Origin: Actinomycetes bacterium
GTDB lineage: Bacteria; Actinomycetota; Acidimicrobiia; Acidimicrobiales; Bog-793
Assembly (NCBI GenBank): GCA_021796535.1
Contig: JAKABW010000010.1
Span: 1-64,000, forward strand
Direction: 5' to 3'
Length of the DNA: 64,000 nt
The notes below the pieces were generated by a model. That model ran no database searches. It saw only the letters and a list, made by a program, of their open reading frames with translations, and had not been told where the DNA came from. The position numbers were made by a program, and so were the translations under genes. Within the stretch, counting starts at the first letter, position 1; each line of letters begins with the position of its first letter. Positions 47,727-55,998 of this stretch are shown one piece after another.

Positions 47727-49292
47727 GTGGAAATCAATCACGATACTGTAGTAGTTGTCAATTTTGGCGCTCAATACGCCCAGCTCATCGCCAGAAGAAT
47801 TCGCGAAGCCCGCGTCTTTTCTGTCATAGTGCCGTACTTTGCCACGGCGGAAGAAATCCTGAGCCATAATCCGTCGGCTCTCATACTTTCCGGAGGACCG
47901 GCAAGTGTTTTTGAAAAGAATGCCCCCCAACTGAATCCGGATATTCTGAAACTCGGAATACCTGTTTTTGGCATATGCTACGGCTTCCAAGCCATAGCCC
48001 AAAGCGTGGGTGGCTCTGTCAAACAAAACGAAATGGCAGAATACGGACGTACGGCCGTTGCCATCACCGATACCGCCGATCCGCTGTTTTCCGACCAACC
48101 CGGACACCAGGAGGTGTGGATGTCGCACAGGGATGCCGTCGCCTCGCTTCCCGCTCCTTTTCTTCCTTCCGCCAAAAGTCCCGCTGCCGCCATAGCGGCT
48201 TTTTACAACGAATCCGACCGCATTTACGGCGTCCAGTGGCATCCCGAGGTTGTCCACACCCCCTACGGACAGCAGACTTTAAAAACATTCCTCTACGACA
48301 TAGCGGGGTGTGCCCCGACATGGATGCCCGACGAAATAATCGATATTCAGGTAGAGCGGATTCGCAATACGGTAAAAGACAGGCACGTTTTGTGCGCACT
48401 GTCCGGAGGAGTCGATTCTTCCGTGGCAGCGGCCTTGGTTCACAGAGCCATAGGCGATCAGCTCACCTGTGTTTTCGTCGACAACGGTCTGCTGCGCAAA
48501 GGGGAACGGAGCCAAGTTGTCTCAGACTTTGCCGCAACGAACAACATCAGGCTGCACGTGGAAGACGCCGAAGCGGAATTTTTGGGTGATCTGGCCGGCG
48601 TGACGGAGCCGGAAACAAAAAGAAAAATTATAGGAAACGCATTCATCAGGGCTTTTGAAAGGGCCAGCAGGAAAGTCGCGGCTGAACAAGGTCTCTCCGG
48701 ATTTGAATACCTGGTGCAGGGAACCCTTTATCCGGATGTGGTCGAGTCGGGCAACGCGGCCGGCACCTCCGTCATCAAAAGCCACCATAACGTGGGCGGT
48801 CTTCCGGACGACATGGAATTCGAACTGATAGAACCCCTCAGGGATCTTTTCAAAGACGAGGTGAGAGAAGTCGGGGCGGCTCTCGGTCTGGACAAAAAAA
48901 TTGTTTGGCGTCACCCCTTTCCCGGTCCGGGCCTTGCCGTCAGGATCATCGGGGAAGTAACAAAAGAACGCTTGGAAATCCTGGCAGAAACCGATAAAAT
49001 CGTCACCGAAGAGTTGGAAAAAGCCGGAGCGGCGGCCTCTCTTTGGCAATGCCCCGTGATACTGCTGGCGGATGTGCGCTCCGTCGGGGTTCAGGGGGAT
49101 GCCAGAACATACGGCATGCCGGCAGTCATAAGACCCGTGATAAGCCAAGACGCGATGACCGCCGACTGGGCCCGTCTGGACTATGACTTGCTGGCAAAAA
49201 TATCTTCGAGAATCACCAACGAAGTGGAGCACATCACAAGGGTTGCTCTTGATATCACCAGCAAACCTCCGGCTTCCATAGAATGGGAATAA
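47727..49292 (+). CDS. guaA: GMP synthase (glutamine-hydrolysing)
   Basis: Converts XMP to GMP. N-terminal class I amidotransferase with Cys in GICYGFQA near 82 and His/Glu in [10 protein letters not shown] near 173. The ATP-pyrophosphatase P-loop is [13 protein letters not shown] near 230, and the C-terminal dimer domain ends in KPPASIEWE. The 521-residue length is normal. GTG start. It is the last core gene before the accessory helicase insert. Confidence 0.97.
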
Positions 49293-49385
49293 AATCATGA
49301 GTGCCGGAAAACTGAATGGCCTTCTAATGGCATTTCTTTTGAATTGTCTTTATTTTAGTTAAACTTATTTAGGGAGGTGGCTCAA

Positions 49386-52300
49386 TTGGCCAACTTAAAT
49401 GAAAAAATCGAGCATTGGAAAAACAAATTGCTTGATTTGGGAAAACGGAATAGCCTGTTAAACTATAAGTATACCCGCCGTTCCAATCTTCGCATTGAAA
49501 TGCCGAAGATTTTTGATTTATGGAACAGCTTTGTTATACAAGAAGAACCGCTGATTTTTCCCATACCAGCGGAGCCCATGTCTCCCGAAGAAGAGGATTC
49601 GAACGAAACAAATCTTGAAACGGACGGCATCATCACGAATCAATCCCCCCAAGAGCGGCAAAAGACCTTGAATAATATTCGCTCTAAAGCGAAAACAGCT
49701 CTGGAAGAACAGGGAATTAACGTACTCTATCTTTCATTCGGGTTTGTAGGTTGGACCGAAAGTGAAAATTCCTCAGAGGTTTTTACCGCCCCTTTAATCC
49801 TTGTGCCGGTTGCCCTGAAATTGGAATCGATGACTTCTCCATTTGTTCTCACTCTACGTGAAGATGAAATCGTTGCGAATCCGACACTAAAACACAAGCT
49901 TGAGAATGATTTCGGCATTGAATTACCTGAATTTGATTCTGATTCTGAAGATTCATTAAACGACTACTTCTCTAAGGTTAATGGAATTATTGCAAAAAAT
50001 CATTGGAAAATTGTCCCCGAAGTGGGACTGGGTTTGTTGTCTTTCCTGAGAATCAATATGTATCGGGATTTGGAGCAACACAAAGAAGCAATTCTACAAA
50101 GTCCCGTCGTTCGCGCTTTATGTGGTGATACCACCGCACTTCAATACGATCTTTCGGAAATTAAAGATGCAGATCATGACACTATTGAAGCCTCTGATCC
50201 TGTTTTTCAGGTTGTGGATGCAGATTCGAGTCAGAAGGATGCTATTCTCTGCGCCCGGAAAGGCATTAGCTTTGTTCTGCAAGGCCCTCCCGGCACGGGC
50301 AAGAGCCAAACCATCACTAACATTATCGCCGAATGTCTTGCCGACGGGAAGAAGGTTTTATTTGTTTCCGAAAAGATGGCCGCTTTGGATGTCGTCCATA
50401 CACGGCTTAGCAAGGCCGACCTTGCCGATTTTTGTCTAAATTTGCATAGCCACAAGGCAAATAAAAAAGACATTCTGGCTCAATTGGAAAATGTACTGCA
50501 TCTAGCCGATGACAAAGCGAGCTTAAGCAATCATGCCAGTCGGAATCTTTCGTCTTTAACGGAACATCGAAAAAAACTAAATGACTACGCCAAAAGCATA
50601 CACACGACTATTCAGCCACTGAATAAAACAATTTATCAAGTCAATGGAGAGCTTGCCCTCCTGAAAGACTACGAGGAAATCGCATTTTCAATTAATAATG
50701 TCGAAAGTATTTCACAGCATGATTTTGAACTGATGATTAACAAGCTCAACGGCTTTGTCAATACCATCAAAGAGATGAAGACCGGTTACAATGCGAACCC
50801 TTGGAGAGGAACCAAGATTCAAACCTTGACCCATGAGCTGCGGGGTACTCTTGAACCCTATTTAGAAAACTTGTGTCTAAAAATTGAGAAGACCAAGAAT
50901 CTCGCAGATAAAATAGTCGATGATTTTGGTTTTGACTTTGATACCTCTTTCAGCGGCCTCCGCTGTACTGCAGAATTCTTGGCATACGCGGCTCGTTCTC
51001 CAGAAATTCCAGAAAGTTGGATTACGGAAGGAAATCTTGACTCGCTTTTTCATGAGGTCGAGAACTGCATTAAACTGAAAACAAGTTATGACAAACTTAA
51101 ACAGCAGATTCAGACACTGAGAGAGAAAATCGCTGAACTCAGCAAAGAGTCCGTATTTACTTCAACCGAAACTTTTGCCGATGTTACGGAAATCCGGCAA
51201 TATATAAATTCCCTGGATCAACTAATAATAGATACGCCTTGTTATTCAGACTGGGCGCGTATCGAAAATCAAGAAGATATTACGGATTATAAAGATAAAA
51301 TTACTGATTATCAGAATTCGCTCACTGCAATTTTGGACAAGTATGAAAAAGATATACTCAGCATCGACTATAACGAAATATTGCAGCGGTTTAGGGTAAG
51401 TTGTTCATCTGTATTTAAGATTTTCAATCGCCAGTATAAAAAAGACAGACAGCTAATGAAATGCCTGTACAAAGAAGTCTCCGGGACGATAGGCAACGAC
51501 GTCATTATGCAGACCTTGGGACGGTTGCGACATATCGAGGAATTAAAAAAAGAGATTGACCAATGCCCATTATTGAATCGATTCCCAACCTCATACGACG
51601 GGAAAAGAACAGACTTTGATGCCATACAAAAAGCTATGTCTTCATATGTACACATTATGGAATGCATGCAGCTACTTAAACAACTGGAAAAACTTGTAGA
51701 AAACGACAGCTCGAAGGAAAATATATTCCTTAATCGTTATGGGTTCCGATATAAAGGAATGTCCACGGATTGGCTTGCCATTCGCAATGCACTCGCATGG
51801 TGGAAGGAATTCCGGGGGAAAGCAGACACTTTTTCATGTGGTCAACAATTTTTGACTAATGTCTGCTCCGATTCCGAAACTATCCGCAAATGCGATGAAT
51901 ACAAAAAAGAAATATTTGATTGTTTGAAAGAGACAGAGGAAGAATTCCGGTCATACACCGAAATGTTTGAGACCAAAGAGGAACTTCGGGATTTAAAAAT
52001 GTCTGCGCTGTATGACCGGGTAAATGCTTGTGCAGATCTCACCTTACTGGAAAGTTGGATTGACTTCGGTAACGATAGAAAGGAGTGCTGCGAACATGGC
52101 CTTAGTGACTATATAGCCAGGATTGAAGAACAGCAAATCTCGGCGGAGAAAATCATTCCTGTCTTCAAAAGCCAATTCTATCGTCTGTGGCTTGATAAAA
52201 TCTTGCCCAGCTATCCCGCCGTGTCAAACTTTAGGAGTCGAACGCAGGAGCAGATGCTCAGCGAATTTGCCGAACTGGATAAATTGCAGTTTAAAATAGC

Positions 52301-53873
52301 GACGGCACATATTCGATCCAAGCTGATTAACGATCTTCCCTCTATGAACGATTTAACCACAGGCACAGACGAAATCGGCATCTTAAAGCGCGAGCTGAGC
52401 AAGAAACGCCGTATAATGCCGCTACGCAAACTATTCAAGGCTATTCCAAACCTGATTCTCACATTAAAGCCTTGTTTGATGATGTCGCCTCTTTCTGTCA
52501 GCTTATTTCTTGAATCAGACAGCTTCAAATTCGATACTGTAATTTTCGATGAGGCTTCACAGGTCTGTACCGAAAACGCAGTTGGCGCAATATCTCGGGG
52601 AAAACAAGTCATTATCGCTGGTGATAGCAAGCAACTTCCCCCCACAAATTTCTTTTCTGCAACCAATTCTAACGCCGATTTCGATAGAGACGACGATGAA
52701 GACGAGTCTGACGACACTGACGACTTTGAATCAATTCTGGATGAGGCGACATTGCTTCCGGAACAGACGCTTTTATGGCACTACCGCAGTCGACATGAGC
52801 ATTTAATTGCCTATTCCAATGCTAAAATATACAAGAATAAACTGATCACATTCCCGTCCAACACCTATGAAAAAGACGATAGCGGCGTAGAGTACATATA
52901 TGTTCGAGAGGGATCTTACAACCGCGGCGGCAGAGATGGAAACATTAAAGAAGCCGAAAAAGTCGCGGAAATGGTGTTCGAACATTTCCAGAAATTCCCG
53001 GGCAGGTCTCTTGGCGTAATTGCTTTTGGCGAAGTACAGCAGCAGGCTATCGAAACGGCAATTAACCAGAAACGCAGAAAGAACCAAATTTTCGAAGAAT
53101 TCTTTAATGAAGATCGCTCTGATCCGTTTTTTATCAAGAATCTTGAAAACGTGCAAGGTGACGAACGTGACACGATCATTTTTAGCATCGGCTATGCCAA
53201 AGATGCCAATGGAAAAATGTACATGAACTTTGGCCCACTCAACAAATCAGGCGGTGAGAGGCGACTGAACGTGGCGATTACACGCGCAAAATATAATGTT
53301 AAACTCGTCGGCTCCATCAGACCTACAGATATTGAAACGGAGCGAATTAGCAGCGAGGGTCCAAAGCTACTCAGAGGATACATTGATTTTGCGATTAATG
53401 GACCTTCCGTATTGGAAAATGAAATTAACGACAGCAACATAGTTCATCATGATTCTTCCTTTGAGGAAGCGGTTTATAATTTTCTCGATCGGAGAGGCTA
53501 CAAGCTTAGTACCCAAGTTGGCTGTTCCGGCTATCGCATTGATATGGCAGTCAAGCACCCCACACTGAGCGGGAGATATGTCTTGGGAATCGAGTGTGAC
53601 GGTGCAACCTACCATAGTGCGAGAACCGCACGAGAAAGAGACCGACTGCGTCAAGATGTCCTTGAGAACATGGGGTGGACGATTTATCGCATCTGGTCAA
53701 CGGATTGGAACAAAGACCAACGTACCGTAGGCAAACGCTTGATTAAAGAAGTTGACAGAGCCATATCAGAGTATGTCGAAGATATTCCGACACAATCAAA
53801 ACCGGCAGACAATGCAGGACCGACAACTTTTCCATCCGTCGAGAAAAAAGCAACTACCGGTCCCCAAATTTAA
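49386..53873 (+). CDS. DUF4011-like / superfamily 1 helicase / Vsr-like nuclease protein, probable antiphage defence
   Basis: One gene of about 1,495 residues. Order: DUF4011-like N-terminus (KIEHWKNKLLDLGKRNSLLN), Walker A GPPGTGKSQT near 302, a coiled-coil-rich middle of about 700 residues, Walker B IFDEASQV near 1052, helicase motif GDSKQLPPTNFF near 1082, ERRLNVAITRAK near 1298, and a PD-(D/E)XK/Vsr-type nuclease near 1360-1450 (FEEAVYNFL, YRIDMAV, GIECDGATYHSA). Large helicases of this architecture are known as single-gene antiphage systems (I believe named hhe; not verified). The TTG start is set by AGGGAGG five bases upstream. Codon use is clearly more AT-rich than its neighbours. A DUF3320-like tail lies out of frame downstream. 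Confidence 0.85.
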   Translation: MANLNEKIEHWKNKLLDLGKRNSLLNYKYTRRSNLRIEMPKIFDLWNSFVIQEEPLIFPIPAEPMSPEEEDSNETNLETDGIITNQSPQERQKTLNNIRSKAKTALEEQGINVLYLSFGFVGWTESENSSEVFTAPLILVPVALKLESMTSPFVLTLREDEIVANPTLKHKLENDFGIELPEFDSDSEDSLNDYFSKVNGIIAKNHWKIVPEVGLGLLSFLRINMYRDLEQHKEAILQSPVVRALCGDTTALQYDLSEIKDADHDTIEASDPVFQVVDADSSQKDAILCARKGISFVLQGPPGTGKSQTITNIIAECLADGKKVLFVSEKMAALDVVHTRLSKADLADFCLNLHSHKANKKDILAQLENVLHLADDKASLSNHASRNLSSLTEHRKKLNDYAKSIHTTIQPLNKTIYQVNGELALLKDYEEIAFSINNVESISQHDFELMINKLNGFVNTIKEMKTGYNANPWRGTKIQTLTHELRGTLEPYLENLCLKIEKTKNLADKIVDDFGFDFDTSFSGLRCTAEFLAYAARSPEIPESWITEGNLDSLFHEVENCIKLKTSYDKLKQQIQTLREKIAELSKESVFTSTETFADVTEIRQYINSLDQLIIDTPCYSDWARIENQEDITDYKDKITDYQNSLTAILDKYEKDILSIDYNEILQRFRVSCSSVFKIFNRQYKKDRQLMKCLYKEVSGTIGNDVIMQTLGRLRHIEELKKEIDQCPLLNRFPTSYDGKRTDFDAIQKAMSSYVHIMECMQLLKQLEKLVENDSSKENIFLNRYGFRYKGMSTDWLAIRNALAWWKEFRGKADTFSCGQQFLTNVCSDSETIRKCDEYKKEIFDCLKETEEEFRSYTEMFETKEELRDLKMSALYDRVNACADLTLLESWIDFGNDRKECCEHGLSDYIARIEEQQISAEKIIPVFKSQFYRLWLDKILPSYPAVSNFRSRTQEQMLSEFAELDKLQFKIATAHIRSKLINDLPSMNDLTTGTDEIGILKRELSKKRRIMPLRKLFKAIPNLILTLKPCLMMSPLSVSLFLESDSFKFDTVIFDEASQVCTENAVGAISRGKQVIIAGDSKQLPPTNFFSATNSNADFDRDDDEDESDDTDDFESILDEATLLPEQTLLWHYRSRHEHLIAYSNAKIYKNKLITFPSNTYEKDDSGVEYIYVREGSYNRGGRDGNIKEAEKVAEMVFEHFQKFPGRSLGVIAFGEVQQQAIETAINQKRRKNQIFEEFFNEDRSDPFFIKNLENVQGDERDTIIFSIGYAKDANGKMYMNFGPLNKSGGERRLNVAITRAKYNVKLVGSIRPTDIETERISSEGPKLLRGYIDFAINGPSVLENEINDSNIVHHDSSFEEAVYNFLDRRGYKLSTQVGCSGYRIDMAVKHPTLSGRYVLGIECDGATYHSARTARERDRLRQDVLENMGWTIYRIWSTDWNKDQRTVGKRLIKEVDRAISEYVEDIPTQSKPADNAGPTTFPSVEKKATTGPQI

Positions 53874-53914
53874 AACCCTTATGGGTTTATCACATCAAAA
53901 GTCACAGACTTTGA

Positions 53915-54393
53915 AAGCGCCCGCCCGATAAGGATAACCTTGTATGGATAGCAGACCGCATTGAACTTTTGCTCAAAAAACGAATATCCCATACATTATG
54001 TCTTGGTGTGCAAGAAACTTGCGGACCCGCTCGAGAGAAAAAGGCGACTTCGGTTGTCCGCCATGAAGTAGGCCTTGTTCTGGAGAGGTTGAAGACCAGA
54101 GTTCTTCGCAAAGGAGATTTCTTGTATCCTGTGGGATATGCAGATGTTCCAACACGAATATTAAATGGTCGCTCAATTACGCAAGTCAGCATTGATGAGC
54201 TGACTTCTGCCATGTCTACTATTGCAAAAAAATGTATTGGGATGACACGCGAAGCCCTCATTAGCGAGACGGTTCGCGCTTATGGCTTTGCCGTTCCGAA
54301 AGCAGTATCGGTGATGCGCTGAATCAGACATATGAGCGGTTGCTTACCGATAACAAGATCCGTGAGGTAGACGGAAAAGTACTGCTCAACTAG
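53915..54393 (+). pseudogene. Frameshifted DUF3320-like module, remnant of the helicase gene's C-terminus
   Basis: An open stretch in a different frame from the helicase gene encodes WIADRIELLL, then VVRHEVGLVLERL, KGDFLYPVGYADVPTR, VSIDELTSAMSTI and MTREALISETVRAYGFA. This matches the pattern of DUF3320, the usual last domain of DUF4011 helicases. The frame then breaks at about 54290-54292; adding one base continues it as RSESSIGDALNQTYERLL and IREVDGKVLLN, ending at TAG 54393. There is no ribosome binding site. I infer that it was once joined to the gene upstream; a separate dead gene is possible. Confidence 0.65.
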
Positions 54394-54412
54394 GAGCGAT
54401 AAGTACCTGCTA

Positions 54413-54449
54413 TTTTACTTATATGACACTTGGCTCGTGTCAAAGTAAA
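54413..54449. repeat. Long inverted repeat behind the pseudogene
   Basis: TTTACTT (54414-54420) and GACAC (54425-54429) pair with GTGTC (54437-54441) and AAGTAAA (54443-54449). No T-run follows, so it is an imperfect hairpin rather than a clear terminator. Confidence 0.4.
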
Positions 54450-54453
54450 TCAA

Positions 54454-54625
54454 AACAATGAGCAACGCTATAAAGAATTAAGCAAACCTTGCCGCTGCGA
54501 ACTATAAGTCGTGCTCCCAATTGGATATTCCAGAGCAAGAAAGCATTATACGTCACACAGAATGGGGTGAAAAAACTTTGTGGGAGACACCGGCTACTAA
54601 ACTAGATGGTTTACTAGCCGAATAG
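54454..54625 (+). pseudogene. Possible gene fragment of unknown origin
   Basis: From 54482 to the stop at 54623 there are 47 codons without a stop, reading ANLAAANYKSCSQLDIPEQE and then HTEWGEKTLWETPATKLDGL. The preceding bases in another frame read NNEQRYKELSK and would join it by a one-base shift. The composition is protein-like but I recognise no family. It has no start codon or ribosome binding site. Treat as a likely remnant within the accessory insert. Confidence 0.3.
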
Positions 54626-54792
54626 TCATAACGAGCGGGAGTAGGTAAAGTGAGTATGCCGGGGGAAAAGCAACTTTGTCAATCCGAAACACAACCCGCA
54701 ACCCACAACCGCAATATTTAGCTTAGTATGTATGAGGAGAATAACGAGGCTCCCGCGCGTTGTAAAAAATCAAAAGGTAAATTTATTTTAAA

Positions 54793-55998
54793 GTGACCAC
54801 GCAATTCTTTGATACGACAAGCTCATTGAGCTCTAAATATACGGCCGTCAAAAAAACTTTTATTTGGTCTTGGCTAAAAAAAGTAGACATTTTAATGCTC
54901 CTCGCCGTCTTTATGCTCTCTGTTATCGGGTTGATCATCGTTTACTCGGCGACAAAAAACTACTATCCTTTGGAACCCACGTATTTTCTCAAAAGACAGA
55001 TCCTGTATGTCATTATAGGAATCATCGTTATGGCCATAACTTCTTCAGTCGATTACAGACGCTTGGAATACCTTGCTTACCCCATATACGGACTGGGAAT
55101 ATTGATGCTTTTGGCGGTATTCGCCGTTCATTCACAAATTTCTACGGCTTACAGCGGTCCGTCGGCAAGCGCCCAACGCTGGATCCCCCTTGGCCCCATC
55201 CAACTGCAACCTTCCGAAATAAGCGTCATAGGGGTAATTTGTGCCATAGCGTGGTATGTGGAATCGCGAACTGACGGGCTGAAACTGAAATCGGTTGCGG
55301 TTATACTCTTATTGGCCGCAATACCCATGGTCTTGATCGTCAAACAACCGGACCTCGGAACTGCGGTGGTCTTGGGTGTGGTGTTGAGCGCTTTGCTCGT
55401 CACAGCCGGCACACGGCTCAGAATTCTCTTTATCCTGGCCGCAGTCGTGGGACTGGTAGCGTTTTTGGCCATACACGACCATTTGATAAACTCCTATCAG
55501 CTGCAGCGGCTGACAAGCTTTTTCAACCCCGGCAATGCTTCTTCGGCTTCAAAATACCAGCTGATGCAAACGGAAAATGCCATAGGGGTGGGGGGTGTCA
55601 GAGGCAGCGGTCTTTTCAAAGGATCCCTTGTCAATCTGAACTATATACCTGAATTGTACGCAGACACCATTTTTGCCGCCATCGGAGAACAACTCGGCTT
55701 TATAGGTTCAATATTCGTCGTGGCAATGTATGCATTGCTTGCCTCACGCATTGTTCATGCAGCCAGAGTGTCCAAGGACATGATGGGTAAACTGCTTTGC
55801 GTGGGAGTACTTGCTTTTATAGTATTCTCGGCTTTTCAAAACATCGGTATGGATATAGGCCTGATGCCGATAACCGGTATCCCTCTGCCGTTTATTTCAT
55901 ACGGAGGATCGGCCATCATCGCTTTCTTCGCCGCCATCGGCTTGGTGATCAACGTGGAATACCGCAATACCTCCGTAAAAACAGGCAGGTATATTTGA
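54793..55998 (+). CDS. rodA: RodA-like SEDS protein lacking the conserved catalytic Asp
   Basis: A 401-residue membrane protein with about ten helices, closest to RodA, which polymerises glycan strands during elongation. Family blocks: IVYSATKNYYPLEP near 55, RWIPLGPIQLQPSE near 134, KQPDLGTAVVLG near 190, GVGGVRGSGLFKG near 270 and FISYGGSA near 370. The loop that normally reads NP-x-x-Asp-P reads NPGNASSASKYQ at the same length, so the catalytic Asp position is Ala249. It may be inactive, or use another residue. GTG start with weak ribosome binding. It is the first gene right of the accessory insert. Confidence 0.88.
   Translation: MTTQFFDTTSSLSSKYTAVKKTFIWSWLKKVDILMLLAVFMLSVIGLIIVYSATKNYYPLEPTYFLKRQILYVIIGIIVMAITSSVDYRRLEYLAYPIYGLGILMLLAVFAVHSQISTAYSGPSASAQRWIPLGPIQLQPSEISVIGVICAIAWYVESRTDGLKLKSVAVILLLAAIPMVLIVKQPDLGTAVVLGVVLSALLVTAGTRLRILFILAAVVGLVAFLAIHDHLINSYQLQRLTSFFNPGNASSASKYQLMQTENAIGVGGVRGSGLFKGSLVNLNYIPELYADTIFAAIGEQLGFIGSIFVVAMYALLASRIVHAARVSKDMMGKLLCVGVLAFIVFSAFQNIGMDIGLMPITGIPLPFISYGGSAIIAFFAAIGLVINVEYRNTSVKTGRYI

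Follow-up and report, generated by a model that had tools for sequence, protein, structure and literature searches.

What kind of protein does a very large gene encode when it stands alone between two housekeeping genes, and how did it come to be there? The gene lies in the window analyzed here, a 64,000-nucleotide stretch of an Acidimicrobiales genome (contig JAKABW010000010.1). An earlier note made from the sequence had proposed a horizontally acquired single-gene helicase-nuclease, probably an antiphage locus, with a possibly new mode of target recognition. We found that the kind is already known, as the catalogued candidate family PDC-S37 with its relatives Hhe and ProA, and that the main new point is a recently broken C-terminal tail. 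The gene is not novel in kind because PDC-S37 is its best model and its architecture was published in 2013.

The open frame covers positions 49377-53873 (Table 1). The TTG codon at 49386 is the likeliest start because AGGGAGG lies 8 nt before it, and the longer GTG start at 49377 is disfavoured because it overlaps this ribosome-binding site. Predicted promoters and terminators at the locus showed no excess over shuffled sequence. The DUF4011 N-terminus, SF1 helicase motifs and Vsr-type nuclease named in the earlier note were borne out by intact motifs and by Pfam matches to DUF4011 (8.9e-40), AAA_11 (1.8e-22), AAA_12 (8.5e-16) and MTES_1575 (7.1e-38), all well over the Pfam cut-offs, together with DUF559 (8.8e-05). 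Aligned among 73 family members, the window copy keeps Walker A, DEASQ, GDxxQLPP, HYRS, QGDER and LNVAITRA as well as the nuclease residues D1386, E1403, D1405 and H1410, so the catalytic motifs of both predicted enzymes appear intact. These positions are mostly invariant or nearly so across the alignment, H1410 being present in 62 of the 73. The gene is single-copy in its own genome.

Table 1. Features of the locus, in window coordinates.
Feature	Position	Strand	Remarks
guaA, left flank	47727..49292	+	
Approximate insert extent	49293..54694	.	judged against the empty junction in congener G001
Shine-Dalgarno-like AGGGAGG	49371..49377	+	8 nt upstream of TTG; read from the sequence
Helicase-nuclease ORF	49386..53873	+	1495 aa; TTG start; stop codon 53871-53873
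DUF4011 domain	49425..49901	+	Pfam 8.9e-40; sole DUF4011 in the genome
Helicase RecA-like part 1	50211..50516	+	Walker A GPPGTGKS, aa 300-307 (50283-50306)
All-helical arm, aa 378-985	50517..52340	+	inserted between helicase motifs Ia and II
Helicase motifs II-VI	52413..53345	+	DEASQ 1055-1059, GDxxQLPP, LNVAITRA
MTES_1575 (Vsr/PD-(D/E)XK-type) nuclease domain	53460..53750	+	D1386, E1403, D1405, H1410 present
Decayed C-terminal DUF3320/winged-helix region	53874..54393	+	nonsense codon 53871-53873, then about four frame changes
rodA/ftsW-family gene, right flank	54793..55998	+	

The AlphaFold2 model of residues 275-1465 had a mean pLDDT of 87. Structure comparison matched the helicase core to UPF1, IGHMBP2, Sen1, SETX and Dna2 (4b3g_B, Z 24.3, 375 aligned residues, r.m.s.d. 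3.4). As modelled, a helical arm of about 600 residues divides the motor, an SF1 helicase of the Upf1/IGHMBP2 kind. The core fold resembles that of the Upf1, IGHMBP2, Sen1 and Dna2 helicases, but the kinship is at the motor level only, since the window protein adds the arm of about 600 residues, DUF4011 and a C-terminal nuclease.

With DUF4011, motifs I-VI and an MTES_1575 REase domain with its catalytic residues, the gene belongs to the DUF4011-SF1 helicase-Vsr superfamily. Its best PADLOC model is the single-gene defence candidate PDC-S37 (PADLOC-DB PDLC05009; 1377 bits, E 0), which has the same domain order; the assignment is by best score over the DUF4011-helicase-nuclease part (next Hhe, 660) and not by PADLOC's own score and coverage thresholds. 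The best stretch ends at profile position 1355, so the last ~195 positions are absent, whereas the copy of the congener G001 reaches 1544 of 1550; positions of about 1355-1550 are no known requirement for membership. Hhe (NCBIfam NF042953) has DUF4011, the SF1 helicase and the Vsr-type nuclease in common with the window gene, which nevertheless misses its cut-off (930.6 bits against 2000), being about 300 aa shorter than the model and broken in the tail. The anti-phage protein ProA (NCBIfam NF058533) aligns at profile positions 355-1721 with residues 6-1477, again below the cut-off (1265.5 bits against 1500), and about 354 N-terminal and 180 C-terminal profile positions have no counterpart. 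Among giant proteins of the HEPN-transglutaminase-SF1 helicase-Vsr REase-2 wHTH type, the helicase-Vsr-wHTH arrangement has been on record since 2013 (Anantharaman et al., PMC3710099). As in the window gene, the SF1 helicase is followed there by the MTES_1575 REase, and the wHTH/DUF3320 tail is found in intact relatives; the giant proteins have HEPN and transglutaminase domains in addition, whereas the window gene gave no HEPN match among the Pfam matches listed and its wHTH region is broken. In the literature searched, we found no experimental study of any PDC-S37 member and no description of a mechanism for the Hhe/ProA/PDC-S37 group.

The position between guaA and rodA, as originally described, is confirmed. 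In congener G001 the guaA-rodA gap is 140 bp and the site is empty; the window aligns to this junction only up to ~49290 and from ~54695. In congener G002 the interval is filled by other DNA without the helicase-nuclease gene, and because this insert at the same junction is a different one, the site may take inserts repeatedly. Two genes could be named by eye in the G002 interval (locus L045, 3842-6135), one dihydrofolate-reductase-like and the other TnpB-like and split. Conservation of the helicase-nuclease gene at the site is thereby ruled out, and a strong homologue is present in just 6 of 35 genomes from the host's taxonomic family, the window's own included. With the DUF4011 and nuclease matches in place as well, neither outcome that the earlier note had set as a refutation occurred. 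The gene is also AT-richer than its surroundings: its GC is 0.426 where 34 neighbour genes average 0.520, its GC3 is 0.443 where they average 0.575, and z is about -3.9 for each of GC, GC3 and codon index. Only short, chance-looking repeat pairs were observed at the insert ends, with no convincing integrase, terminal repeats or target-site duplication. Judged from site, composition and a cross-phylum tree, the gene is a horizontally acquired insert, as the earlier note had surmised.

G001 carries its own homologue of 1704 aa on another contig, between transposase-like fragments. This copy is 52-53% identical to the window gene, compared with 83% for guaA of the same pair. In a quick tree calculated without a mixture model, the nearest relatives of the window gene come from Bacillota, Thermodesulfobacteriota and Bacteroidota. 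The closest partner of the G001 copy is a Prevotellaceae sequence, in a set that also includes one Desulfobulbaceae and one Firmicutes sequence; the window copy falls outside this set. A clade uniting the window and G001 copies was rejected (p-AU 0.0008), and vertical inheritance within the genus is rejected by this quick tree and the AU test. Sites, composition, the identity gap, the tree and the AU test together point to separate acquisitions by the two genomes.

The window locus is outside any defence island. The neighbourhoods of 11 close relatives match PADLOC models including JetA/B/D (Wadjet), AbiD and SoFic (25 of 43 families listed), against one match among 63 genes around the window gene, a descriptive comparison that counts families and not proteins. 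No recurrent partner gene was found near the window's own clade, and for this reason we regard the gene as a single-gene system, in agreement with the earlier reading. The locus is a clean case of a defence-candidate gene on its own, neither integrase nor partner being recognisable, and the housekeeping junction where it lies carries another insert in a congener. Elsewhere in the family, a multi-gene variant is suggested by eight relatives, mostly proteobacterial, that lie near an SbcD-like phosphoesterase gene, an SbcC/Rad50-like ATPase gene or both, as identified by eye in blast clusters. Four relatives from Clostridia have a gene in common downstream, about 410-570 aa long, to which no function is assigned.

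Our preferred reading, held with moderate confidence, is that a stand-alone gene of the PDC-S37 branch was acquired horizontally and acts most likely as an anti-phage or anti-plasmid nuclease. Of the antiphage role proposed earlier, the status of defence candidate holds by the PDC-S37 match; the activity itself we infer. The Upf1/IGHMBP2-like motor would load where invading DNA exposes single strands or ends, the arm might check the substrate or hold the enzyme off, and ATP-driven translocation would bring the MTES_1575 domain to the DNA for cleavage. Upf1-like motors can also act on RNA, which counts against a DNA-defence reading.

The arm (residues 378-985), modelled alone, gave a mean pLDDT of 91 and was nearly all helical. 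The middle of the protein had been described as mostly coiled-coil and without a match; the absence of a significant PDB match stands (none by Foldseek at E 0.001 or better), and the region is all-helical over about 600 residues in the confident model. The top Foldseek rows were SMC, Rad50 and Wadjet coiled coils with E above 0.004 and TM under 0.2, a chance-level likeness such as long helices can give, and the best VIA Z (8.9) was to designed bundles. The arm shares 33-34% identity with the four closest relatives, compared with 74-80% for the motor and 74-82% for the nuclease, and its length across the family ranges from 394 to 1355 aa (CV 0.27, against 0.01 for the motor). It is the fastest-changing and most length-variable part of the protein throughout the family, and for this reason, together with the lack of a significant PDB match, the arm is a plausible sensor of the target. 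Such divergence would suit a diversifying sensor, and relaxed constraint would give the same pattern. Since the helical middle varies throughout the family, the suggestion that target recognition may be new here was overstated; as regards target recognition, the locus shows nothing of its own.

Most full-length relatives continue for roughly 120-260 aa beyond the nuclease domain, and DUF3320, a region described as winged-helix (PMC3710099), matched 25 of 27 of the relatives' C-terminal regions. In the window gene the 4.5-kb core is intact while this tail is broken. The ORF coordinates of the earlier note hold, but the insert extends further than the ORF and the decayed C-terminal domain had been missed. 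Using relatives' tails as tblastn queries, we located remnant pieces at approximately 53874-53927, 53933-53974, 53982-54023, 54038-54292 and 54292-54390, read separately with no base restored; the reading frame changes about four times between successive pieces. Of 41 residues shared without exception by four relatives, the remnant retains 32, a level of conservation like that between intact relatives. Because these residues are still conserved, we take the breakage to be recent and reject a loss long ago. Programmed frameshifting into the tail is unlikely, since the frame is closed by a stop before the tail begins and then changes about four times.

The breakage could inactivate the protein, and the gene might be one that served in defence until the recent loss of its DUF3320 region and has been inactive since, its core being still undamaged. 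The nonsense codon and about four frame changes within 520 bp, the near-constant presence of DUF3320 in relatives and the freshness of the remnant are all in keeping with such a dying gene. However, all lesions fall within the last 523 bp of about 5008 bp and none in the preceding 4485 bp (P about 1e-5 under random scatter), a clustering that would fit a truncated protein still under selection, although one complex mutation or a local assembly fault could also produce it. In addition, the core motifs are all intact, and four relatives also end soon after the nuclease. We therefore consider a dying gene possible but unlikely, and the stand-alone nuclease of the preferred reading may work in its truncated form. 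A bolder version, which we hold to be improbable, takes the 1495-aa protein for a minimal enzyme that is still active: selection would have shed the winged-helix tail and freed the helicase-nuclease from a regulatory or targeting element, leaving the fast-evolving arm alone to choose the target. Given the tail loss and the contrast between motor and arm, tests of target sensing in the Hhe/ProA/PDC-S37 group would best be aimed at the arm.

Abortive infection, with a phage-activated nuclease attacking host DNA or RNA, would find a parallel in the related giant proteins that additionally carry a HEPN RNase (PMC3710099). No HEPN domain was found in the window protein among the 25 of 29 Pfam matches listed, and we judge this mode of action improbable. 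Helicases of the Upf1 and Dna2 kind work in repair or RNA surveillance. A chromosomal factor for such nucleic-acid maintenance, to which the motor's closeness to Upf1, IGHMBP2, Sen1 and Dna2 and a core DUF4011 gene bordering a Pseudomonas aeruginosa defence hotspot (PMC10250203) might point, is very unlikely given the patchy presence, cross-phylum tree and plasmid carriage of the family and the absence of the gene from the guaA-rodA site in the congeners.

Homologues were found on 328 plasmids, annotated Hhe among them, and a single-protein search of IMG/VR contigs returned no relative of the window protein. An unannotated phage record from human faeces (MT836269.1, 6048-10175) encodes a 34% identical homologue. 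Gene decay may not be confined to the window copy, since in Cohnella faecalis and Mesobacillus boroniphilus the homologue is spread across several reading frames. Going by record titles, some near relatives seem to come from gut hosts, including termite gut.
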